A stretch of 64,000 nt of DNA from the NCBI GenBank assembly GCA_026414975.1, contig JAOAHZ010000001.1:1-64000 (forward strand), written 5' to 3'. Below the pieces are notes generated by a model that was not told where the DNA came from, did no database searches, and worked only from the letters and a program-made list of their open reading frames with translations. Shown piece by piece: positions 1,517 to 62,700 of this stretch; position 1 is the stretch's first letter; the number at the start of each line of letters is the position of its first letter. Made by a program: the position numbers and the translations under genes. This stretch comes from Bacteroidia bacterium (GTDB lineage: Bacteria; Bacteroidota; Bacteroidia; SpSt-205).

Positions 1517-2110
1517 CTATTTTTTGGGTGTAACAAGGTTCGTATCGGGGCGCTGAATCTTTGTCGTATCCACGCCCAGCTTCTTGAGCAGTTTCTCGGT
1601 AACATCGTGCTCTTTCGGTCCATGAAGAATAAAAGCCACACCCGTAGAGTTTGAGTTATTTAGGATGTAGTCATAGCCCTCTGCAGCTGCCAACTCATCT
1701 ATGGCTTTCTGGAGCTTTTGTATGATCGGTTGAAGCAGCTCAGCTTTCTTCTTGAGATAATTCTGCTCTGACTCCTCCTGGAAGCGCTTGATTTCTTCAT
1801 CTAAACGCATAAGCTCTTTACGGCGCTCCTCCTCTTGAGCGGCGGTGAGCTTGCCTTGCTGCTTGAGCTCGGTATACTCTTCCAGCTTCGTTTGGAGGTA
1901 GCTTTGTTTGATATTGAGCTGCTCAACTATCTTGCGTTCATAGGTGCGAAGCTGCTGCTCCACTTGTTGAGCTTCAGGGAGATAGCTAAGGACAAGCTCT
2001 AAGTTGGTGTAGCCAATGCGAAGGGCTTTTTGAGAAGACTGAGCTGGAGACACCTGGGGCTGGCCACAGGAGAGGAGGATAATGAGTCCAAGGGCACGCA
2101 CTTTTTGCAT
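1517..2110 (-). CDS. OmpH/Skp-family periplasmic chaperone, probable lipoprotein (MQKVRALGLIILLSCGQP)
   Basis: Coiled-coil OmpH-like sequence; start reassigned to the ATG at 2110-2108 (residue 7 of the ORF), which gives a lipoprotein signal; adjacent to bamA. Confidence 0.8.
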   Translation of the reverse strand: MQKVRALGLIILLSCGQPQVSPAQSSQKALRIGYTNLELVLSYLPEAQQVEQQLRTYERKIVEQLNIKQSYLQTKLEEYTELKQQGKLTAAQEEERRKELMRLDEEIKRFQEESEQNYLKKKAELLQPIIQKLQKAIDELAAAEGYDYILNNSNSTGVAFILHGPKEHDVTEKLLKKLGVDTTKIQRPDTNLVTPKK

Positions 2111-2114
2111 CGGC

Positions 2115-2122
2115 CAAAGGTA
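2115..2122 (-). promoter_or_regulatory. TAnnTTTG -7-type box, 4 nt before the ompH-like ATG
   Basis: TACCTTTG-GCCG-ATG. Confidence 0.65.
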
Positions 2123-27447: not shown

Positions 27448-28403
27448 CTCCGTCTAAGAGCTCTATCTACCGCTGCCATAATGTGACGCGCTGTCAGCCC
27501 GTACTTTTCTAAGAGTTCATCCGGTTTTCCACTTTCTCCAAAGGTATCCTGTACGGCGATCCGCTCTACGAAGCGGGGACAGAACTGCGTAGATACATGA
27601 CTCACTATGTCTCCCAGTCCATTATGAACTTGATGTTCCTCAGCCGTAACGACTATAGGCGTGCGCTCTAGCCACTCCCTGATACCCTCCACATCCACAG
27701 GCTTAAGGGTATGCACGTTCACGACGGCTATAACAAGCCCTTGCTCTTCCAGCGCATAAGAGGCCTGTATAGCGTGCCAGACCATATGCCCTGTAGCAAA
27801 AATAACCCCATCATACCCGTCCAAGACTACTTGGACCTTTCCTATCTGAAAAGAGGGGTCGTCAGGCGGAGTAAAGTTGGGGACGGCTGGACGACCGAAT
27901 CGCAAATACACTGGTCCTTCTATACGAGCCGCAGCCAGGGTAGCTAACCGAGTTTGATTGTAATCACATGGACTCAGTACCGTCATGCCTGGCAGCCCCC
28001 GCATTAGACCGATGTCTTCCAGCATCTGATGCGTAGCGCCATCCTCCCCTAAGGTTAAGCCAGCGTGCGAAGCAGCTATCTTAACATTTTTGCCTGAATA
28101 GCAAACACTTTGGCGAATTTGATCGTATACTCGTCCCGTAGCGAAGTTAGCGAAAGTCCCCACAAAGGGAATCAACCCAGTGGTAGCGAGTCCAGCTGCC
28201 ACTCCAATCATGTTCGCTTCAGCCACCCCGCACTGAAAGAACCGCTCGGGAAAGCGCTTTGCGAAAGCGTCCATCTTTACAGAACTCATAAGGTCCGCTG
28301 ATAAAGCGACAATCCGAGCATCTCTTTCAGCAGACTCCACGAGTCCAGCGCCAAAGCCGGAGCGCGTGTCTTTTGCCCCAAAATCCGTCAACCGTGGTCT
28401 CAT
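27444..28403 (-). CDS. Transketolase, C-terminal subunit
   Basis: Pyrimidine-binding/C-terminal transketolase motifs (FAKRFPERFFQCGVAEANMIGVAAGLA). Confidence 0.94.
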   Translation of the reverse strand: MRPRLTDFGAKDTRSGFGAGLVESAERDARIVALSADLMSSVKMDAFAKRFPERFFQCGVAEANMIGVAAGLATTGLIPFVGTFANFATGRVYDQIRQSVCYSGKNVKIAASHAGLTLGEDGATHQMLEDIGLMRGLPGMTVLSPCDYNQTRLATLAAARIEGPVYLRFGRPAVPNFTPPDDPSFQIGKVQVVLDGYDGVIFATGHMVWHAIQASYALEEQGLVIAVVNVHTLKPVDVEGIREWLERTPIVVTAEEHQVHNGLGDIVSHVSTQFCPRFVERIAVQDTFGESGKPDELLEKYGLTARHIMAAVDRALRRR

Positions 28404-29257
28404 CAGAAGTCTCGCAAGGTAGCGGGAAGCTGCAAAATCGCCCGCTCGTATTCAGCTGAAGTGGGAGGCTTCCCATGCCAGCGATAGTCGTTCTCCATGA
28501 AATCCACTCCCTTACCCATGGTTGTGTAAGCGATTATCATGATAGGCTTGCCTTGACCTGAGCGATGAACAGCCTCGTTGAGCGTCGCAAGAATAGCCGA
28601 AAAATCATGGGCTTGCCTTAGAGCCAGCACATCCCACCCAAAGGCTCGCCACTTTTCCTCTAAAGGGTCTGTATTGAGCACATCTCGGGTATCTCCGTCT
28701 ATCTGCTTGTAGTTTCGGTCGGTGATAACGATGAGGTTATCTACTTGATGATGAGCCGCAAAAAGAGCCGCTTCCCATATTTGACCTTCGTTTGTTTCCC
28801 CATCCCCTATCATAGCGTAGACCAAGTGCGAGTCCTTCAGTAGCTTTTTCCCTAAGGCGATGCCAATAGCTGCGGAGAGCCCTTGACCGAGGGAGCCGGT
28901 GGCAACTCGGACCCCCGGAAGGCCTTCTTTTGTAGCTGGATGCCCTTGAAGTCGGCTATGGATGCGCCGAAAGGTCGCTAGCTCCTCTATAGGAAAGTAC
29001 CCACTACGAGCTAACACTGCATACCAAGCAGCACAAATATGTCCATTGGATAAGACGAACACATCCTCGCCAATTCCCGTAGGAGAAAAGGGCTGGGGGC
29101 GATGCCGAAGATGTGCGAAATAAAGCGCCACAAATATATCCGCCGCTCCCAAGGCCCCGCCCGGATGGCCTGATTGAGCCATATATATCATCCGCATAGC
29201 ATCCCGCCGTACTTGCGCCGCTATCTTTTCCAACTCGGCTATATCCATGTCCGCCAA
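28403..29257 (-). CDS. Transketolase, N-terminal (TPP-binding) subunit
   Basis: SGHPGGALGAADIFVALYF; GDGETNEGQIWEAALFAAHHQVDNL; probable start at ATG 29248. Confidence 0.94.
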   Translation of the reverse strand: MADMDIAELEKIAAQVRRDAMRMIYMAQSGHPGGALGAADIFVALYFAHLRHRPQPFSPTGIGEDVFVLSNGHICAAWYAVLARSGYFPIEELATFRRIHSRLQGHPATKEGLPGVRVATGSLGQGLSAAIGIALGKKLLKDSHLVYAMIGDGETNEGQIWEAALFAAHHQVDNLIVITDRNYKQIDGDTRDVLNTDPLEEKWRAFGWDVLALRQAHDFSAILATLNEAVHRSGQGKPIMIIAYTTMGKGVDFMENDYRWHGKPPTSAEYERAILQLPATLRDF

Positions 29258-29262
29258 AGTTA
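29255..29262 (-). promoter_or_regulatory. TAnnTTTG -7-type box, 6 nt before the transketolase-N ATG
   Basis: TAACTTTG-GCGGAC-ATG. Confidence 0.6.
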
Positions 29263-29273
29263 GAGAGAAGGCT

Positions 29274-29281
29274 TACTTTTG
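29274..29281 (+). promoter_or_regulatory. TAnnTTTG -7-type box, 4 nt before the EGF-lipoprotein ATG
   Basis: TACTTTTG-TGGG-ATG. Confidence 0.7.
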
Positions 29282-29285
29282 TGGG

Positions 29286-29795
29286 ATGAGAATTCTTCTA
29301 TGGGCCTCAGGCCTCCTCTCTATCCTTCTATTTGGCTGCAGACGGCGTTCCTGTGAAGGGGTGGAGTGCTTGAATGGAGGCTCGTGTCGAGGCGGTCGTT
29401 GCCAGTGTCCTGCCGGCTTCGGCGGGTCCCGTTGTGAGCAGAAGTGGAGCGATGGATGGGTAGGTAGCTACACCGTGGATGATCGCTGTGCCATAGTCGG
29501 TTTGATCCCCCAGTATGAAGCCACCATTTCACCCTCCCCCATCTACCCTGATGTAATATACTTTGAAGGATTCGGCGATGTACGATGCGAAGGACAGCGG
29601 TTACGCGTGGAAGGACGACTCATAAACTCAGACCGCGCAGAAATCGCTCGGCAGAGTAGCTGTAACCGCCGTTACGCCATTCAAGGAATTGTCCAAAGAG
29701 ACGCTGGCCGGCGCTCTCTACGAGTGGAGTACTATTTTCAAGACTTCCAGACAGGCGTCAGTGATACATGCAGAGCCGAATGGTTTCGGTACTGA
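29286..29795 (+). CDS. Lipoprotein with an EGF-like domain
   Basis: Lipoprotein signal MRILLWASGLLSILLFGC; CEGVECLNGGSCRGGRCQCPAGFGGSRCEQ matches the EGF cysteine pattern. Confidence 0.8.
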   Translation: MRILLWASGLLSILLFGCRRRSCEGVECLNGGSCRGGRCQCPAGFGGSRCEQKWSDGWVGSYTVDDRCAIVGLIPQYEATISPSPIYPDVIYFEGFGDVRCEGQRLRVEGRLINSDRAEIARQSSCNRRYAIQGIVQRDAGRRSLRVEYYFQDFQTGVSDTCRAEWFRY

Positions 29796-30502: not shown

Positions 30503-30510
30503 TAACTTTG
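30503..30510 (+). promoter_or_regulatory. TAnnTTTG -7-type box, 4 nt before the DUF6580-like GTG
   Basis: TAACTTTG-CGTA-GTG. Confidence 0.65.
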
Positions 30511-30514
30511 CGTA

Positions 30515-31018
30515 GTGCAGAAGCAGCTACTGGGTGCATCCCTACTACTGATAATAGGACTCGTGGGGCGGCTTGTACCCCACCCCCCCAATTTTACGCC
30601 GGTGGAGGCTGTTGCTTTGTTTGGGGGGGCGTGGCTATCGCCCTTCTGGCTTAGCCTTCTGGTGCCCTTAGGTGTGATGGCTATAAGCGATCTTATTCTC
30701 GGATGGCATAATCTATGGCCCTTCACATGGGGGGGAATGCTTATAGGCACCTACTTAGGACACTATGTTATGCAGACCCATCGCTGGGTGTCTGTGGCAG
30801 GCACCGCTACTCTTCAGGCCACCCTCTTTTTTCTGCTGACAAATTTTGGCGTATGGATAGGGGGTTACTACGGCCACACCTTCACAGGGCTTATCACCTG
30901 CTATGTAGCTGCTATTCCATTCTACCATTATCAGGTGTTGGGAGCCCTTAGTTATAGTACCCTTTTTTGGGCGGCTGAGCATAGCCTATTTCGGAGACTT
31001 ATGCCAGCGAGGCGATGA
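30515..31018 (+). CDS. DUF6580-like integral membrane protein (ECF S-component-like)
   Basis: Polytopic; PPNFTPVEAVALFGGAWL..AISDLILGWH. Confidence 0.7.
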   Translation: MQKQLLGASLLLIIGLVGRLVPHPPNFTPVEAVALFGGAWLSPFWLSLLVPLGVMAISDLILGWHNLWPFTWGGMLIGTYLGHYVMQTHRWVSVAGTATLQATLFFLLTNFGVWIGGYYGHTFTGLITCYVAAIPFYHYQVLGALSYSTLFWAAEHSLFRRLMPARR

Positions 31019-34079: not shown

Positions 34080-35105
34080 ATGTTTGGGCTTCTCTTGAGA
34101 CAAGATATAGCAATAGACTTAGGCACCGCCAACACTGTCATTATGGTAGATGGGGAGGTGGTGATTGATGAGCCTTCTATAGTGGCGATAGATCAAACGA
34201 AGAATCGCGTCATCGCTGTGGGGCAAGAGGCTTTATACATGCACGAGAAGGCTCATAAGAACATTCGCACTGTTCGGCCTCTGCGAGGAGGGGTGATAGC
34301 TGACTTTGCCATGGCAGAGGCAATGATTAGGGGCTTTTTGGCTAAGATTCCCGGCAGTCGTCGCCTGCTCAAGCCCAACCTACGCCTTATGGTCTGTATT
34401 CCCAGTGGTATAACCGAAGTCGAGGAGCGCGCCGTGCGGGACTCCGCCGAACGTGCCGGAGCTCGGGAGGTATATTTGATTCATGAACCCATGGCTGCTG
34501 CGCTCGGCATGGATTTAGATGTAGAAGCCCCTGAAGGGAATATGGTCATAGACATTGGCGGAGGTACCACGGAGATTGCAGTCATAACCTTAGGGGGAAT
34601 CGTGTGCGACCGAAGCATCCGCATAGCCGGAGATGAGCTAAACGCCGACATAGTTGAGTATATTCGCCGCCAACATAACCTTCAAATCGGGGAGCGAACA
34701 GCTGAACGCATCAAGATAGATATAGGCGCTGCTATCGCAGACATTCCTGACCCTCCCCCCAATCAACCCGTACGCGGAAAAGACATTATGACCGGAACGC
34801 CTCGGACGCTCTCCATCTCTTACCGAGAGATAGTGAGTGCCTTAGACAAATCCATCTCTAAGATATTGGAAGCCGTAATGCAAACCTTAGGAGCCACCCC
34901 GCCTGAGATTGCAGCCGACTTGGTAGAACGAGGTATCCACATGGCTGGGGGCGGAGCCCTACTGAGAGGATTGGACGAACGTATCGCTCAACAAACCCAT
35001 TTACCCGTGCGTATTGCTGAAGACCCTCTCCGAGCCATCGCTAAGGGCACCAGTTATGCTCTCCGAAACCTAAATAAGTTCCACTTCCTCCTCGTAAAGA
35101 GCTGA
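34080..35105 (+). CDS. mreB: Rod shape-determining protein MreB
   Basis: IAIDLGTANTVIMVDGEVV..DIGGGTTEIAVITLGGIV; start moved to ATG 34080. Confidence 0.96.
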   Translation: MFGLLLRQDIAIDLGTANTVIMVDGEVVIDEPSIVAIDQTKNRVIAVGQEALYMHEKAHKNIRTVRPLRGGVIADFAMAEAMIRGFLAKIPGSRRLLKPNLRLMVCIPSGITEVEERAVRDSAERAGAREVYLIHEPMAAALGMDLDVEAPEGNMVIDIGGGTTEIAVITLGGIVCDRSIRIAGDELNADIVEYIRRQHNLQIGERTAERIKIDIGAAIADIPDPPPNQPVRGKDIMTGTPRTLSISYREIVSALDKSISKILEAVMQTLGATPPEIAADLVERGIHMAGGGALLRGLDERIAQQTHLPVRIAEDPLRAIAKGTSYALRNLNKFHFLLVKS

Positions 35106-43562: not shown

Positions 43563-43570
43563 TACCTTTG
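43563..43570 (+). promoter_or_regulatory. TAnnTTTG -7-type box, 4 nt before the rfbB ATG
   Basis: TACCTTTG-TAAC-ATG. Confidence 0.7.
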
Positions 43571-43574
43571 TAAC

Positions 43575-44624
43575 ATGGTCAGGGTTTGGGTTACGGGCGG
43601 AGCGGGGTTCATCGGGTCTCACCTTGTACGCCACCTTATCCATACAAAAAGCGATTGGGAGATACACACGATAGATGCCCTGACTTATGCGGGCAATCTG
43701 GAAAATCTCGCCGATGTTCTTGACCATAAACGCCATATCTTTCACAAGGTAGATATCGCCGACTCAAACTCCGTAGAAAACCTATGGACAGAGGCTCCGC
43801 CTGATATTATCCTTCACTTAGCAGCCGAAAGTCACGTGGATAGAAGCATTTTATCCCCTTTGGACTTTGTGCATACGAACGTGTTAGGCACGGTTACGCT
43901 CTTAGAAGCTGCCCGCCGGCATTGGAGAGGGCGCTCCGACACGCTTTTCTATCAAGTCTCAACAGATGAAGTCTACGGTAGCTTAGCAGAAGGCGAGTTT
44001 TTCTCAGAGGCGAGCCCCTATGATCCCCGTAGTCCTTACTCAGCTTCCAAAGCAGCAGCCGACCATTTTGTGCGGGCTTACGGTCATACCTATGGACTAC
44101 CCTATCTTATCAGCAACTGCGGCAATAACTACGGACCCTATCAGTTTCCCGAGAAGCTCATTCCTCTCACCATCACTCACCTAATGGAGCGCAAACCCAT
44201 CCCAGTGTATGGGTCTGGACAGAATGTACGCGACTGGATACACGCAGAGGATCATGTACGAGCGATTGACTTGCTTATTCAGCGAGGTCAGCGGGGTCGT
44301 ACTTATTTGATTGGAGCGGAGAATCCGCGTCCCAACTTAGAGGTCGTGCGACTGCTCTGCAGGCTATACGATGAGCTGACTGGCAGCTCTGGCTCTGAGT
44401 CGCTTATCACTTTCGTCAAGGACCGACCCGGTCATGACTTTCGGTATGCTATCAAGCCATCCCCTTCTCTCAAGGCCTTGGGATGGTCTCCTCAAGTGTC
44501 GTTTGAAGAGGGACTGCGTCAGACAATAGCGTGGTACCTATCACACCCAGACTGGCTGGATCGGGTTCGCTCTGGAGCGTATCAAGACTACTATAGGTTT
44601 CAATACGGGGAGCGTCTCGGCTAA
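43575..44624 (+). CDS. rfbB: dTDP-glucose 4,6-dehydratase
   Basis: VTGGAGFIGSHLVRHL; LAAESHVDRSI; STDEVYGSL; YSASKAAADHFVRAY; GNNYGPYQFPEKLIPL; start moved to ATG 43575. Confidence 0.96.
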   Translation: MVRVWVTGGAGFIGSHLVRHLIHTKSDWEIHTIDALTYAGNLENLADVLDHKRHIFHKVDIADSNSVENLWTEAPPDIILHLAAESHVDRSILSPLDFVHTNVLGTVTLLEAARRHWRGRSDTLFYQVSTDEVYGSLAEGEFFSEASPYDPRSPYSASKAAADHFVRAYGHTYGLPYLISNCGNNYGPYQFPEKLIPLTITHLMERKPIPVYGSGQNVRDWIHAEDHVRAIDLLIQRGQRGRTYLIGAENPRPNLEVVRLLCRLYDELTGSSGSESLITFVKDRPGHDFRYAIKPSPSLKALGWSPQVSFEEGLRQTIAWYLSHPDWLDRVRSGAYQDYYRFQYGERLG

Positions 44625-44635
44625 AAGTCAGTTTA

Positions 44636-44643
44636 TACCTTTG
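44636..44643 (+). promoter_or_regulatory. TAnnTTTG -7-type box, 4 nt before the response-regulator GTG
   Basis: TACCTTTG-TATT-GTG. Confidence 0.7.
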
Positions 44644-44647
44644 TATT

Positions 44648-45040
44648 GTGCCCAAAAAGCGTATATTGTGCGTGGACGATGAAAAAGTCGTTCTAAACAC
44701 CCTCATGGGACAGCTCTATCAGACCTTTGGAAATCGGTACCTGTACGAGTCCTTCACGAGTGCCGAGGAAGCGGAAGAGTACATAGACGAGATTTACGCC
44801 GAGGGGGAAAATGTACATCTGATCATTTGCGACTGGCTCATGCCTCGGATAAAAGGCGATGAATTTTTGGTACGGGTACATAAGCGATTTCCAGAGGTAG
44901 GACTCATCATGCTCTCCGGCCAAGCCAGCCCCGAAGCCATAGATCGGGCTAAAAATGAAGCCCAGATTCTGGCTTTTGTCCCCAAACCTTGGGACAAGGA
45001 TGAACTTATGACCCTAGTGCAAAAAGCCTTAGAGCAGTGA
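44648..45040 (+). CDS. Single-domain response regulator (REC only)
   Basis: ILCVDDEKVVLNTL..LIICDWLMPRIKGDEFL..FVPKPWDKDEL. Confidence 0.92.
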   Translation: MPKKRILCVDDEKVVLNTLMGQLYQTFGNRYLYESFTSAEEAEEYIDEIYAEGENVHLIICDWLMPRIKGDEFLVRVHKRFPEVGLIMLSGQASPEAIDRAKNEAQILAFVPKPWDKDELMTLVQKALEQ

Positions 45041-45518: not shown

Positions 45519-45526
45519 TATTTTTG
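45519..45526 (+). promoter_or_regulatory. TAnnTTTG -7-type box, 6 nt before the histidine kinase ATG
   Basis: TATTTTTG-TAGTAG-ATG. Confidence 0.6.
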
Positions 45527-45532
45527 TAGTAG

Positions 45533-47179
45533 ATGACGGAGGAATATGTTTTTTTAGGCGAACTGGCCTGGCGTCCAGAAGACACCATAGAAGCATGGGG
45601 GCTTCGTTTCCTACATACCCTCCGTCGTCGGCTTCCTCTCCTCTCTGCAGCGCTATACGGCGTGATAGAAGCTGACAAAATAGAATACATCGCCAGCTAC
45701 GGGGTCGTTTTTCAGGGCAAGGGCACCTTGGAATGGGGAGAAGGGCTAATCGGCGAAGCCGCTCGCCATCAGCGACCCTTTCTATATCAGCCAGAGGGCG
45801 CTCCGCCTCATTCTTACGGGTTCGGTGTGGTTTATCCTCGCTATCACTGGGTCTATCCTTGGGTGTATCAAGCCCAGACTTGGGCTGTGGTGGAGTCCCT
45901 TCTCCTGCGTCAGCCTACACCAGATGAGCTCAGTTGGCTTGAACACAATCAGCGCCTTTTAGGCATGCTGCTAAGTAATGTATTCCAACAGCAGCGTATT
46001 CGGAGGCTACTGGTAGAGCAGCAGCGGCAAAACGAACTACTCCGAGAAAATATCATCCGCTTAGAAGAAGCCCGAGCCGAACTGAATAACCTCAACGCTT
46101 CCTTAGAGGAGCGAGTTCGACAACGCACCCAGGAGTTAGAATCAGCGCTACGCGAGCTGCGCTCCGCTCAGCAGCAGCTCATTCTTTCAGAAAAAATGGC
46201 TGCTCTGGGGCAGCTTGTCGCTGGCGTGGCCCACGAGATTAATAGCCCCCTTGGAGCTATCAAGGGATCAGCCGAAACCCTCTTAGATGCTCTTCCTCAG
46301 CTTTTGAGCCGGTTAGCTGAAGCGAGCGAGCCGGATTGGACTATCCTCAACCATACACTTAGGTGGCTAAACGAGTATTTCCAGACAGCTCAGCGGCCCG
46401 TTCTAACTTCAAAGGAAGAGCGCGCCCTAAGAAAACGATACGCTTCGGAGTTAGAATCCAAAGGGCTCAGCGAAGCCGACACCTTAGCTCGTCGCCTCGT
46501 AGAAGCAGGTATCATTTTAGAAGATTTTTCTCCTCTTCTGCCAGCTTTGCGCTTGCCTTATGGTCCCGATATCCTCTACCTCCTCGGTCAGCTCAAACTT
46601 CAACTGGAAAACATCGTAACCGCTGCGAATCGTACCCGAAAAACGGTATTCGCCCTAAAGAGCTACGCCCACACGACCGACCATACCAAACCCACCCTTA
46701 CTCGCTTAGATGAATCGGTGGAAACTATCCTCACGCTTTACCAAAACCAGCTCAAGCAAGGCATAACCGTCTATACCGAATGGGACCCTAAAGTACCCCC
46801 CTTGTACCTTTTCTCCGACGAGATTGGACAGGTCTGGACCAACCTCATCCAAAATGCCATTCAAGCTATGCAGGGACAGGGCGAATTGCGAGTAGAGATA
46901 CACTTAGAGGGCGAAGAAGTAGCCGTCTCCGTAATAGACAACGGTCCAGGCATCCCTCCAGAGATACTTCCACGGATTTTTGAACCCTTCTTCACCACTA
47001 AAGCCAAGGGAGAAGGTACAGGCTTAGGACTGGATATTTGTCGGCGCATCATTGAGAAACATCGGGGGCGCCTCACCGTAGACAGTCAACCTGGCTACAC
47101 TCGCTTCACAGCCTTTCTACCTCTAAGCCTTCAGAAGCCCGATTGGTACCCATATGAACCTCATCCTCAAAGGGTTTGA
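45533..47179 (+). CDS. Cytosolic sensor histidine kinase with GAF-like N-terminus and an insert in the HisKA region
   Basis: AALGQLVAGVAHEINSPLGAIKGSAETL (H box); N box TNLIQNAIQAM; DNGPGIPPEIL; GTGLGLDICRRIIEKHRG. Confidence 0.92.
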   Translation: MTEEYVFLGELAWRPEDTIEAWGLRFLHTLRRRLPLLSAALYGVIEADKIEYIASYGVVFQGKGTLEWGEGLIGEAARHQRPFLYQPEGAPPHSYGFGVVYPRYHWVYPWVYQAQTWAVVESLLLRQPTPDELSWLEHNQRLLGMLLSNVFQQQRIRRLLVEQQRQNELLRENIIRLEEARAELNNLNASLEERVRQRTQELESALRELRSAQQQLILSEKMAALGQLVAGVAHEINSPLGAIKGSAETLLDALPQLLSRLAEASEPDWTILNHTLRWLNEYFQTAQRPVLTSKEERALRKRYASELESKGLSEADTLARRLVEAGIILEDFSPLLPALRLPYGPDILYLLGQLKLQLENIVTAANRTRKTVFALKSYAHTTDHTKPTLTRLDESVETILTLYQNQLKQGITVYTEWDPKVPPLYLFSDEIGQVWTNLIQNAIQAMQGQGELRVEIHLEGEEVAVSVIDNGPGIPPEILPRIFEPFFTTKAKGEGTGLGLDICRRIIEKHRGRLTVDSQPGYTRFTAFLPLSLQKPDWYPYEPHPQRV

Positions 47180-50462: not shown

Positions 50463-51290
50463 TTATAACTCGCGCACCAGCTCGGTAAATATCTGGGTGA
50501 GTTTGGGTTCAGAACCGTTCGCTACGCGTATAATCTCTTCCAGAGACACAGGTTTTAGGTTATCGGGGTCTCCAAGGTCGGTGATAATAGACATAGCAAA
50601 CACGCGCATACCCATATGATTAGCCACTATACACTCAGGCACAGTGGACATACCCACAGCATCACCGCCGATGATGCGTAAGAAGCGATATTCAGCCCGA
50701 GTTTCTAAGTTAGGGCCTGGGACAGCCACGTACACGCCCTCGCGCACAGGGATGCCCAGCCGATGAGCTATAGCTTTGGCTCGGTTAATTAGTTCGGGAT
50801 GATAGGGAGCACTCATATCAGGGAATCGCGGGCCAAGCTGGTCTAAGTTCATGCCACGTAGGGGATTCTCAGGAAGCAAGTTGATATGATCGGTGATAAT
50901 CATTAGGTCGCCTAACTCAAAGGAGAGATTGAGTGCCCCAGCAGCATTAGAGAGCAGCAAGGTATGGGCTCCGAGGAGCTTGATGATACGAATAGGGTAG
51001 GTAATCTGATACATGTTGTACCCCTCGTAGTAATGAAATCGCCCCTGCATAGCGACGACCTTCTTCCCGCCTAACTGACCAAAAATCAAGCGACCAAAAT
51101 GGCTCTCCACAGTGCTGATGGGGAAATGAGGAATGAAGTTATACGCTAACTGATGTACCTTTTCTATGGCATCCGCAAGGCGGCCCAATCCTGTTCCCAA
51201 CACAATCCCGATCTCTACCTCACCTTGAAAGTAGCGGCGAATGTACTCTAAAGTCTCTCGGAAGTGCGTATAAGCCTCAGGCGTAGTCAT
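50463..51290 (-). CDS. Purine-nucleoside phosphorylase
   Basis: IGIVLGTGLGRLADAIE; FHYYEGYNMYQITYPIR; SNAAGALN; GGDAVGMSTVPECIVANHMGM. Confidence 0.95.
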   Translation of the reverse strand: MTTPEAYTHFRETLEYIRRYFQGEVEIGIVLGTGLGRLADAIEKVHQLAYNFIPHFPISTVESHFGRLIFGQLGGKKVVAMQGRFHYYEGYNMYQITYPIRIIKLLGAHTLLLSNAAGALNLSFELGDLMIITDHINLLPENPLRGMNLDQLGPRFPDMSAPYHPELINRAKAIAHRLGIPVREGVYVAVPGPNLETRAEYRFLRIIGGDAVGMSTVPECIVANHMGMRVFAMSIITDLGDPDNLKPVSLEEIIRVANGSEPKLTQIFTELVREL

Positions 51291-52381
51291 GATTCTAAAA
51301 GGTTTTGGAAAAAGCGAGTTAGCAGCTCATCCGTCTCGGATGGGTTAGTCGGGACCATGGCTATTTGCACAGCATACAAAGGTAGTCCTTCCAAGATATG
51401 GTAATGCTCGCTTTCTCTGAGACGCACAAGGTCTTTTTCGGTCGTGAGTAGGATCAGATTGGTTCCCCTCAGGCGTGTTTCGCATCGGTGATAGGCCCTG
51501 CGGATGCGCCGCAAGTCCGAATCCGTGTAGAGATGATGGTCGGGAAAACGCATTTCTTTTAACACATAGGCCTTAGCTTGGTAGAGGGTGGTATAAAAGC
51601 TATCTGGGCGCGCTATACCGCAGAATACCAAAACGCCCCGAAAACGAATATCGTCGACCGAAAGAGAGGGCAAATGAGGCCAAGCAGGCCTAAGTCCCGC
51701 CACAGCATACTTAAACTCAAGTGTAGGCTTGTGAAACCGCGGTCTACGCAGTACTTTGTCTAAGCTCTTCCTATTCAGGACAATAAGGTCAGCGCGCCGA
51801 TAGGCCCTCAGGGGCTCTCTGAGTCTGCCCAGAGGAAAAATCCAATCCTTCCATATCGGCCGCTGCATATCTATGAGAAGGATGTTGAGATTTCGATGCA
51901 GGCGCCGATGCTGAAAGGCATCATCCAGTACGATTACTTTGAGATGCGGGTAGCGCTGCAGAAGCTCTCGGCCCCCAGCAACTCGATCCTCACACACAGC
52001 GACAGGAAGGTGAGGGAACCGAACCTTCGCTAAGCAGGGTTCATCTCCGTACATGGCGGCTGCTTGAGGGGTAGCCAGAGAGACCTCAGCAAATCCCCTC
52101 GTTTGACGACCATAACCTCGGCTGAGATAAGCCGCCCGTATACCCCGATTAGAGAACCACTCCAGCAGATAAAGCGCAAAAGGCGTTTTACCACTTCCTC
52201 CCAAGGTCAGGTTACCGACGCTGACCACTACACAAGGAAGGCGATAAACGGGTAACCATCCTCTATCGTAGAGCCAGTTACGAATAGAGACCCCAACTCC
52301 ATACAGTAGAGCTACCGGCAAAGCAGCCAAACCGAGAAATAAGCGTCCTACTTGTCTTGCATAGCGACTTATTCTCGGCAT
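51287..52381 (-). CDS. lpxK: Tetraacyldisaccharide 4'-kinase
   Basis: VVSVGNLTLGGSGKTPFALYLLEW; YLSRGYGR; VIVLDDAFQHRRLHRNLNILLIDM. Confidence 0.95.
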   Translation of the reverse strand: MPRISRYARQVGRLFLGLAALPVALLYGVGVSIRNWLYDRGWLPVYRLPCVVVSVGNLTLGGSGKTPFALYLLEWFSNRGIRAAYLSRGYGRQTRGFAEVSLATPQAAAMYGDEPCLAKVRFPHLPVAVCEDRVAGGRELLQRYPHLKVIVLDDAFQHRRLHRNLNILLIDMQRPIWKDWIFPLGRLREPLRAYRRADLIVLNRKSLDKVLRRPRFHKPTLEFKYAVAGLRPAWPHLPSLSVDDIRFRGVLVFCGIARPDSFYTTLYQAKAYVLKEMRFPDHHLYTDSDLRRIRRAYHRCETRLRGTNLILLTTEKDLVRLRESEHYHILEGLPLYAVQIAMVPTNPSETDELLTRFFQNLLES

Positions 52382-52394
52382 GCCGCAAAGTAGA

Positions 52395-52402
52395 TAGTTT
52401 TG
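52395..52402 (+). promoter_or_regulatory. TAnnTTTG -7-type box, 4 nt before the bioB GTG
   Basis: TAGTTTTG-CTGT-GTG. Confidence 0.7.
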
Positions 52403-52406
52403 CTGT

Positions 52407-53375
52407 GTGATTCGTTATGACTGGACCCTCGCTGAGGTCGCTGAAATCTACCGTCGCCCCCTCCTGAATCTGATAATGGAGGCGGCTGCCGTGCACCGCC
52501 AGTTCCACATACCTGGTCAAATACAAGCCTGTACGCTTCTCTCTATCAAGACGGGAGGCTGCCCAGAGGACTGTGCCTATTGTGCACAGTCGGTCCGTTA
52601 CCAAACGGGTGTTCAAGTTCATCGGCTTTTGGATGTAGAAACGGTGGTAGAATCTGCACGTCAAGCTAAACGGAATGGAGCAACGCGATTCTGTATGGGG
52701 GCAGCCTGGCGCGAAGTACGCAGTAATCGCGACTTTGAGCGAGTCTTAGAGATGGTGCGTCAGGTACGAGCCTTGGGACTGGAGGTATGCGCTACGCTGG
52801 GCATGCTTACCCCGCAACAAGCTGTAGCCCTCAAAGAAGCAGGGCTCACGGCATACAATCACAATTTAGACACGTCAGCTTCTTACTACGGTGAAATCAT
52901 TACGACGCGCACTTACGAGGATCGCCTTCGTACATTAGAAGTGGCCCGAGCGGCTGGCCTCAGCCTCTGTTCAGGCGGTATTTTAGGCTTAGGGGAATCC
53001 GAGGAGGACCGCATAGCTTTGCTCCACACACTGGCTACCATGCAACCTCATCCCGAATCGGTTCCCATCAATGCTTTAGTTCCTATTCAAGGCACCCCCT
53101 TAGAACATCAAGAACCACCTTCGGTATGGGAAATGGTACGGGCCATCGCCACCGCTCGCCTCCTCATGCCGCGCAGCATGATTCGCCTGGCAGCGGGACG
53201 TGAGCGCCTCTCCCCCGCCGAGCAGGTCTTATGCTTCATCGCTGGAGCCAACTCTATTTTTTTAGGCGAAAAGCTCCTCACAACCCCGAATGCCCCTCTC
53301 GGCGAGGACGAAAAACTGTTTGAGATACTGGGGATACAACCCCTTCCCGCATTTGCAAACGCTTTACATGAATGA
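52407..53375 (+). CDS. bioB: Biotin synthase
   Basis: [40 protein letters not shown]-like motif; [16 protein letters not shown]. Confidence 0.97.
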
Positions 53376-60333: not shown

Positions 60334-62688
60334 TCATTCGTCCTCATAAAGAGGGGGAAATCGTTGAGGTTCCACTTCTCGCATGAGCCGATACACACGG
60401 TCTATGATAAGCTCAGCGCTGGGCTTTGAGAAAAAGTCCCCGTCACTACCGTAGGCAGGCCGATGGTCCTTACCCGATATAAGGAGAGGGGGCGAGTCTA
60501 ACCAGAAGTAACCATTCTGCTTGTCCAAAACATGCCAAAGCATATAAGCGGTGGCCCCACCCGAGACATCTTCATCTATAAAGGCAATCCTGCCTGTCTT
60601 TCGGAGAGAAGACCCAATAACCCCGTGAAGGTCAAAAGGCAGGAGGGTCTGTACATCAATCACCTCGCACGATACACCCAGTTCAGCCAAGGCTTCAGCG
60701 GCTTCTATGGTTATTCGCACCATAGCCCCGTAGGTTACAAGGGTAATGTCAGTGCCCGAGCGCAAAACTTCAGGCACACCCAGTGGCACTCGGAACTCGC
60801 CAATATTCTGGGGCATAGGTTCGCGAAGGCGATAGCCATTCAGCACTTCTATAAGAACAGCCGGTTCGTCAGCACTTAGAAGCGTATTGTAGAATCCGGC
60901 AGCTTGAGTCATATTTCGGGGGACGAGTAGATAAAGCCCCCGTAAAGACCCCAGTAAGAGCTGCATCGGGGAGCCTGAATGCCAGATTCCCTCTAATCGG
61001 TGGCCTCGGGTACGGACAATCAGGGGCACCTTCTGCTTGCCTACGGTACGCCAAGAGAGCGTGGCCACATCGTCCGACAGAATTTGTACTGCATAAAGCA
61101 GATAGTCTAAGTACTGGACTTCTGCGATAGGGCGCAAGCCACGCAGCGCCAGCCCTATACCTTGTCCGACTATAGTAGCCTCACGAATGCCCGTGTCGGC
61201 GACTCTAAGAGGACCAAATGCGGCTTGGAGTCCAGCGCATCCTTGATTGACATCCCCCAGCTTACCTACATCTTCGCCAAAGATAACAACCCGCGGATCA
61301 CGCCTCAGAGCCTCTCGAAAGCAAGCGTTGATGATGCGAAAGCCCTCCACATGTTCGGCTTGGGGGGAATACTGAGGGGGTATGGGTGGCACTTGCAAAG
61401 CCGTACCCCTATACAGCAGAGAATCATAGCGCTTCTCTAAATCGGCGTACCGCTCTCGGTAAAGGCGAGACAAAGCTTGGCCCACGGGGCTGCCACGGAA
61501 GCGTCGCACACTCCGATGAAGGATTTCAAATACCTCTCGGTAAGTAACTGGCTTGAGTTTCTCTAACGCTGAGCATTCCTCGGAGGGAGGGAGCAGCTCT
61601 AAGACCTCTCGCTGAAAGGTATAGATAGGTCGCAAATAAGCCTCCCAAGCTCGGCGCTGAGCAGAGCGAGCCTCGGCTGTAGCTTCTTTCTCTATACCAT
61701 CCAGCTCCTCGGCAGCAGCTAATCCCGCTTCTATGAGCCATGCTCTCATACGCTGAAGTCCATCGTGGGCTCTCTCCCAGGCTAAGCGCTCTTGGGATTT
61801 GTAGCGTTCATGACTACCTGATGTAGAATGTCCTTGAGGCTGAGTCAGTTCGGTTACGTGGATGAGGGCAGGCACGTGGGTCTCCCTCACCTGCTGAGCC
61901 ACCTTTATGTAGGTTTCTACTAAAGTCGGATAATCCCATCCACGCAGCGTGTAGATTCGAATAGCGGGGGACATCCCTTGGAGAGCCTCGGATATGCTAG
62001 CCTTAGCGGTTTGCAGCTCCACGGGAACGGATATTCCATAGCCATCGTCCCAAACGCTCACAATAGCCGGTGCGCGCAGGACGGCCAGAGCGTTGATAGA
62101 CTCCCAAAAGAGTCCCTCACTGGTACTGGCCTCTCCAATCGTACCCCACGCGATTTCATCGCCATTTTGAGAAAAGTCGGTGAAAGCCGCAAGCTCAGGC
62201 AAATGACGATAAAGCACCGAAGCCCAAGCCAGTCCAACCAGCCGAGGCAGCTGGCTGGCTGTAGGGGATATGTCAGAGACGCTATTTTTTAGACTGACCA
62301 AGCTGAGCCACCTGCCCTGGTCATCTAAAAAAGCCGTAGCGAAGTGATTATTCATCTGGCGCCCCCCCGAGGCAGGTTCTCGTTCAGGATTCGTATCCGC
62401 ATAGAGCTGGGCAAAAAACTCTTCTGGCTTCATAAGCCCAGCAGCTAACATGAAAGTTTGATCTCTATAATACCCTGAGCGAAAATCCCCCGCTCGGAAA
62501 GCATGAGCCATCGCTAACTGAGGCAGCTCCTTCCCATCTCCAAAAATGCCAAACTTAGCCTTGCCTGTGAGAACCTCCTTGCGCCCGATGAGGCTAAGCT
62601 GACGACTCAAGTACCCTATATAATAATCCCGCAAGATAGCCTCCCGAGTCAGCCCGCCAGGTAAATCAACCGCCTTCACATGACTCAT
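60334..62688 (-). CDS. Fused alpha/beta E1 component of a 2-oxo acid (branched-chain type) dehydrogenase
   Basis: Alpha half: YYRDQTFMLAAGLMKPEEFFAQLYAD; beta half: VVIFGEDVGKLGDVNQGCAGLQAAFGPLRVADTGIREATIVG..FAEVQYLDYL-like. Confidence 0.92.
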   Translation of the reverse strand: MSHVKAVDLPGGLTREAILRDYYIGYLSRQLSLIGRKEVLTGKAKFGIFGDGKELPQLAMAHAFRAGDFRSGYYRDQTFMLAAGLMKPEEFFAQLYADTNPEREPASGGRQMNNHFATAFLDDQGRWLSLVSLKNSVSDISPTASQLPRLVGLAWASVLYRHLPELAAFTDFSQNGDEIAWGTIGEASTSEGLFWESINALAVLRAPAIVSVWDDGYGISVPVELQTAKASISEALQGMSPAIRIYTLRGWDYPTLVETYIKVAQQVRETHVPALIHVTELTQPQGHSTSGSHERYKSQERLAWERAHDGLQRMRAWLIEAGLAAAEELDGIEKEATAEARSAQRRAWEAYLRPIYTFQREVLELLPPSEECSALEKLKPVTYREVFEILHRSVRRFRGSPVGQALSRLYRERYADLEKRYDSLLYRGTALQVPPIPPQYSPQAEHVEGFRIINACFREALRRDPRVVIFGEDVGKLGDVNQGCAGLQAAFGPLRVADTGIREATIVGQGIGLALRGLRPIAEVQYLDYLLYAVQILSDDVATLSWRTVGKQKVPLIVRTRGHRLEGIWHSGSPMQLLLGSLRGLYLLVPRNMTQAAGFYNTLLSADEPAVLIEVLNGYRLREPMPQNIGEFRVPLGVPEVLRSGTDITLVTYGAMVRITIEAAEALAELGVSCEVIDVQTLLPFDLHGVIGSSLRKTGRIAFIDEDVSGGATAYMLWHVLDKQNGYFWLDSPPLLISGKDHRPAYGSDGDFFSKPSAELIIDRVYRLMREVEPQRFPPLYEDE

Positions 62689-62692
62689 GGAA

Positions 62693-62700
62693 CAAAGATA
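62693..62700 (-). promoter_or_regulatory. TAnnTTTG -7-type box, 4 nt before the E1 dehydrogenase ATG
   Basis: TATCTTTG-TTCC-ATG. Confidence 0.7.

Follow-up and report, generated by a model that had tools for sequence, protein, structure and literature searches.

The window, a 64-kb stretch of DNA, forms the beginning of contig 11 in a 2.2-Mb genome with 97% completeness and a GC content of 52%. Seven of its genes carry a perfect TAnnTTTG octamer exactly four nucleotides (N4) before the start codon, all of them where the initial annotation had located them (Table 1). Two further boxes that had been placed at six nucleotides (N6), before the genes for a transketolase N-terminal subunit and a histidine kinase, were also correct. 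Near-matches had been listed before lpxK and before putative SDR, NUDIX and DUF6089 genes; all four are present, but before lpxK and DUF6089 the box has the form TACTTTG, with the TA one base nearer than in the consensus. Pfam agreed with the names given to the OmpH, DUF6580, rfbB-like, response regulator, BioB, E1, transketolase-N, histidine kinase and LpxK products, whereas the EGF match of the lipoprotein gene starting at 29286 falls under the Pfam curated cut-off.

Table 1. Boxes upstream of start codons in the window, with coordinates running over box, spacer and start codon.
Gene	Gene coordinates	Box-spacer-start codon	Spacing	Box-start coordinates	Strand	Identification
OmpH-like	1517-2110	TACCTTTG-GCCG-ATG	N4	2108..2122	-	OmpH by Pfam
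Transketolase N-terminal subunit	28403-29248	TAACTTTG-GCGGAC-ATG	N6	29246..29262	-	Pfam
EGF-like lipoprotein	start 29286	TACTTTTG-TGGG-ATG	N4	29274..29288	+	weak EGF match
DUF6580	30515-31018	TAACTTTG-CGTA-GTG	N4	30503..30517	+	Pfam
rfbB-like	43575-44624	TACCTTTG-TAAC-ATG	N4	43563..43577	+	Pfam: sugar-nucleotide dehydratase
Response regulator	44648-45040	TACCTTTG-TATT-GTG	N4	44636..44650	+	Pfam
Histidine kinase	45533-47179	TATTTTTG-TAGTAG-ATG	N6	45519..45535	+	Pfam
lpxK	51287-52381	TACTTTG-CGGC-ATG		52379..52392	-	LpxK by Pfam
bioB	52407-53375	TAGTTTTG-CTGT-GTG	N4	52395..52409	+	Pfam: biotin synthase
E1 dehydrogenase	60334-62688	TATCTTTG-TTCC-ATG	N4	62686..62700	-	E1_dh by Pfam

Dinucleotide shuffles of the window predict 0.64 occurrences of the pattern TANNTTTGNNNNRTG; the window itself has eight, a number that none of 100 shuffles reached. 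The eighth match, at 34471, lies out of frame within the gene at 34080-35105 and is best read as a chance occurrence. BioB of the window has its top identities (75-86%) with the metagenome-derived genomes Bacteroidia bacterium SKYG57, SKYB95, SKW103, KatS3mg025 and KatS3mg026. These are presumably hot-spring genomes, as their isolate series, to which a Gloeomargarita genome also belongs, suggests, and the source family of uncultured Bacteroidota probably lives in hot springs.

A genome-wide count against a control had been proposed as a check. The source genome contains TAnnTTTG-N4-RTG (RTG standing for ATG or GTG) 270 times and the reversed pattern 17 times. Each of the 12 genomes in its GTDB family is enriched (194-302 against 6-33). 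In the one genome taken from the sister family of the same order the counts were 96 and 60, and in draws of 399 genomes from the phylum and 396 from the class the ratio of pattern to reversed pattern was mostly near 1-2. The nearest competitor is family f91, with 419/96, 350/114 and 393/127 in genomes of about 2.9 Mb each, followed by f98 (224/91 and 224/80), f72 (around 150/50) and, within f7, a single genus (159/60).

For gene-level analyses we used 400-kb stretches of two species of the family, the source genome and one other (800 kb in total), with genes called by a simple home-made codon-model caller and start codons left uncurated. Comparison genomes G033, G272 and G410 were taken in larger stretches; a mixed set of 20 stretches of 20 kb each had yielded too few gene calls to be usable. 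Over 400 kb of the source genome, TAnnTTTG-N(k)-ATG was found 32 times at k=4 against about 4 at k≥10, and the corresponding GTG pattern 11 times against about 3, with no enrichment of TTG (2) or CTG (3) at N4; the second family member had 41 ATG codons at N4. Among called genes N4 is a sharp mode, 2.8 times as frequent as N5 and 7 times as frequent as N3, so that box and start codon keep a constant short spacing, as in leaderless genes. The exact octamer TAnnTTTG stands at N4 before 69 of 397 called starts that are not operon-internal, where the 29 other permutations of its six letters averaged 0.31 (800 kb). The exclusion of TTG at N4 is visible in the raw spacing counts but does not reach significance when called starts are compared (p 0.56). 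A preference for GTG over other start codons at N4 was also considered and rejected (17/83 vs 88/568, Fisher p 0.27).

The strictly N4 genes exceed background by about 36 per 400 kb, which extrapolates to some 200 genes in the whole genome, a share of 11-12%. When one mismatch is allowed (five of the six fixed bases, TAnnTTCG being the commonest variant), a box lies at N3-N6 in 47% of divergent genes against 2.4% in distal control windows, and at N3-N9 in 57%. The initial annotation had called leaderless mRNAs widespread; if boxes close to the consensus are included, along with leaders predicted to measure 0-2 nt, this amounts to about 40-50% of first genes, and about half of the first genes have no recognisable box at N3-N9.

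The boxes belong to first genes of transcripts. Of the 651 genes called over the 800 kb, 83 have a possible start codon at N4, among them 43 of the 178 with a divergent upstream neighbour and 37 of the 219 whose same-strand neighbour is more than 15 bp away. Only 3 of 254 operon-internal genes do, against 80 of the 397 others (Fisher p 2.5e-15), and N4 is thus nearly absent from operon-internal starts. Divergent pairs are packed tightly: only 25 bp separate the starts of bioB and lpxK, whose boxes lie back to back in between, an arrangement conserved in 8 relatives with TACTTTG-N4-ATG on the lpxK side, and the EGF-like lipoprotein and transketolase-N genes start 37 bp apart. Median start-to-start gaps of divergent genes are 76 and 68 bp in the two family members, compared with 152 and 259 bp in two ordinary Bacteroidia, and gaps of 40 bp or less make up 23/89 and 1/46, respectively. 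Gaps this short leave no space for the usual leaders.

Genes without a start codon provided evidence that is independent of translation. ARAGORN found 13 tRNA genes in the 800 kb, 9 of them first in their cluster. In all nine first-in-cluster genes TAnnTTTG lies 4-15 nt upstream of the mature 5' end; none of the four that directly follow another tRNA has it, and among random 60-mers 1.6% do. The octamer is therefore a promoter rather than a ribosome signal and, as expected of the Bacteroidota sigma-A -7 element, it also drives untranslated RNA genes. In Flavobacterium johnsoniae the identical octamer was mapped to positions -12 to -5, and transcripts begin 4 or 5 nt beyond it (PMC6847099), which together with the tRNA genes bears out the equation of TAnnTTTG with this -7 element in the initial annotation. 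The consensus TAHHTTTG lacks G at two positions, and in the 83 aligned N4 genes G is reduced there but not absent (13% at -10 and 6% at -9). These genes show an additional preference for C at -9 and -10 and no other strong signal. A -33 element (TTG, TTTG or TTGAC) was not found among them; the alignment carries almost no information between -60 and -20, and the annotators had rightly missed a consistent one. The -33 element is hardly visible in F. johnsoniae too (PMC6847099) and is thus disputed as a defining feature of a sigma-A promoter. Our claim covers the -7 element, not a full two-part promoter.

Spacing was also followed in orthologues of the family, and the N4 distance persists in those of E1, ompH and bioB even where the start codon has moved. 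For E1, TAnnTTTG-N4-ATG is present in 10/10 scored sequences and in an eleventh that was read by eye beyond a frame shift; the bases of the four-nucleotide spacer differ between sequences, as does the region upstream. The ompH orthologues have N4 in 10 of 11 sequences with the start codon shifted by up to two codons, and bioB has it in 10/10, with the start four codons further out in seven. The rfbB sequences comprise six with exact N4 (our own included), two with N4 and TTCG, two with N3 and one cut by a contig end. The response regulator has N4 in the source genome and its three closest relatives, and mostly N5-N10 in the others. Coupling between box and start codon is thus strong but not absolute and short leaders seem to be tolerated; the drift of the response regulator to N5-N10 indicates that a leader of exactly zero is not always selected. 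From N4 to N10, its orthologues form a natural series of predicted short leaders across species.

Bacteroidota serve as the textbook example of a phylum lacking Shine-Dalgarno (SD) sites. In agreement with the initial annotation, which predicted none on these genes, SD-like words precede 4.8% of N4 genes, below the 10.8% of the distal control, and no gene class in the 800 kb was enriched in them. The Bacteroidota form of bS21 hides the anti-Shine-Dalgarno sequence (PMC10783764). Loss of bS21 is ruled out as a cause, the protein being present in 11/12 family genomes. A search for 16S rRNA (RF00177), intended for its anti-SD tail, found none in seven family genomes (the source genome, G399, G401, G402, G405, G406 and G408, one of them single-contig); the same search missed 5 of 14 controls, so that nothing follows from this absence, and masking or a limit of the tool may account for it.

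Taken together, we consider it very likely that in many first genes of this family the housekeeping -7 element is set such that the first nucleotide transcribed would be the first of the start codon. Given the distance of 4-5 nt mapped in F. johnsoniae between the box (-12 to -5) and the start site, N4 would put the start on base 1, give or take the one base by which that distance varies. The leaderless mRNAs predicted by the initial annotation are strongly supported by the sequence-level predictions tested, all of which hold: the N4 spacing, the limitation to ATG and GTG, the position in first genes, the conservation and the tRNA promoters. In the mechanism that we propose, the octamer is the -7 element of a housekeeping promoter of the sigma-A type, RNA polymerase would start 4-5 nt past the box, as the Flavobacterium mapping suggests, and the mRNA would have no leader or one of 1-4 nt. 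Its 5'-terminal AUG or GUG might be taken directly by the ribosome, through a whole 70S particle or by IF2-dependent entry, as happens with leaderless mRNAs in other organisms. The default leader in the family would have moved from about 15-30 nt to zero, at little cost, because Bacteroidota ribosomes do without SD pairing anyway.

The best-surviving alternative accepts the promoter as real but lets translation begin at a downstream codon, or takes N4 as the edge of a general leader of 1-5 nt. Spacings N5-N8 do exceed background (25, 12, 10 and 9 genes against about 1-2 per spacing) and the response-regulator orthologues sit at N5-N10, as it would predict; the height of the N4 mode over N5 and N3, however, the restriction of the enrichment to ATG and GTG, and the retention of an RTG at N4, without exception among the scored orthologues of E1 and bioB and with few exceptions among those of ompH, make this reading improbable. 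It is distinctly less probable again that the N4 octamer serves as a signal for translation in an ordinary leadered mRNA, comparable to the Kozak-like A-rich contexts of Flavobacterium. Such a signal would account for a fixed distance to the start codon in a phylum without Shine-Dalgarno sites, but it would be needed at operon-internal starts too, where the box is nearly missing (3/254), and has no place before untranslated tRNA genes; moreover, the box is identical to the mapped -7 element, and where divergent starts lie 25-40 bp apart, separate promoters would hardly fit between them. Chance or a gene-calling artefact, suggested by a home-made caller, uncurated starts and a pattern chosen after looking, has a negligible probability given raw pattern counts that are independent of gene calls and replicated in 12 genomes, and given reversed-pattern, permuted-octamer and distal-spacing controls all near zero.

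We also compared the family with other Bacteroidota. In two ordinary Bacteroidia N4 occurs in 10/303 non-internal genes (3.3%), and the other boxes lie mostly at N15-N25, a distal class that is nearly gone in the family; other sampled Bacteroidia have a small N4 peak as well. These positions agree with published leader lengths: 5.5% of Flavobacterium psychrophilum transcripts are leaderless (PMC9723704), 3.7% of Bacteroides thetaiotaomicron leaders are shorter than 10 nt (PMC7366714), and in F. johnsoniae 87% of leaders exceed 10 nt and 13% have 10 nt or less (PMC6847099). Because these three mapped species are leadered, leaderless translation is ruled out as the reason for which the phylum lacks SD sites. 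Their leaderless minority uses the same promoter and probably the same form of transcript, but it amounts to a few percent, whereas N4 is the main class of recognisable promoters in the family studied here. Compared with the sigma-A (sigma-ABfr) promoters of Bacteroidota, those of the family share the six fixed bases at -12 to -5 and the role at tRNA and first genes; they differ in having no trace of a -33 TTTG, apparently in tolerating G at -10 and in a box-start distance that has shrunk from about 15-40 nt to 4 nt. In Actinobacteria and Deinococcus-Thermus, leaderless genes likewise combine a fixed short box distance with ATG or GTG, first genes only and no SD. Their promoter element is a different one (a -10 box directly upstream of the start), and they mix leaderless with SD genes, whereas Bacteroidota ribosomes use no SD at all.

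Among 37 Bacteroidetes/Chlorobi genomes, Zheng et al., who considered Pribnow-like boxes only, found leaderless genes in a single one, at 2.4% (PMC3160421), and Nakagawa et al. suggested on base composition, not promoter spacing, that the phylum might have many leaderless mRNAs (PMC5397173). No report of a leaderless-rich Bacteroidota lineage was found in the literature searched, which covered few subscription journals. Within that literature, the new element is the combination of known parts, the Bacteroidota promoter and leaderless mRNA, which had not been described for this lineage or to this extent. Judged from promoter positions, the lineage as a whole has very probably gone over to transcripts that are leaderless or nearly so, although its phylum is described as leadered. 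On balance we also favour the view that leaderlessness became the default of the family for first genes after SD sites had been lost, on a single -7 element, and arose separately in similar form in at least one other lineage, f91.

A leader collapsed to zero, with in-between relatives, would allow one to ask how genomes shift between leadered and leaderless expression, what the ribosome needs for it and whether heat or genome compaction favours leaderlessness. Start codons and transcript starts would become predictable from sequence in uncultured organisms, and expression rules of Flavobacterium or Bacteroides should not be borrowed for this family. In the sister family, boxes of G410 are bimodal, at N4-N9 and at N20-N28, and this genome looks intermediate between leadered and leaderless ones. 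The f91 member G444, an AT-rich Bacteroidia, has 20 of 215 genes at N4 and many distal boxes besides.
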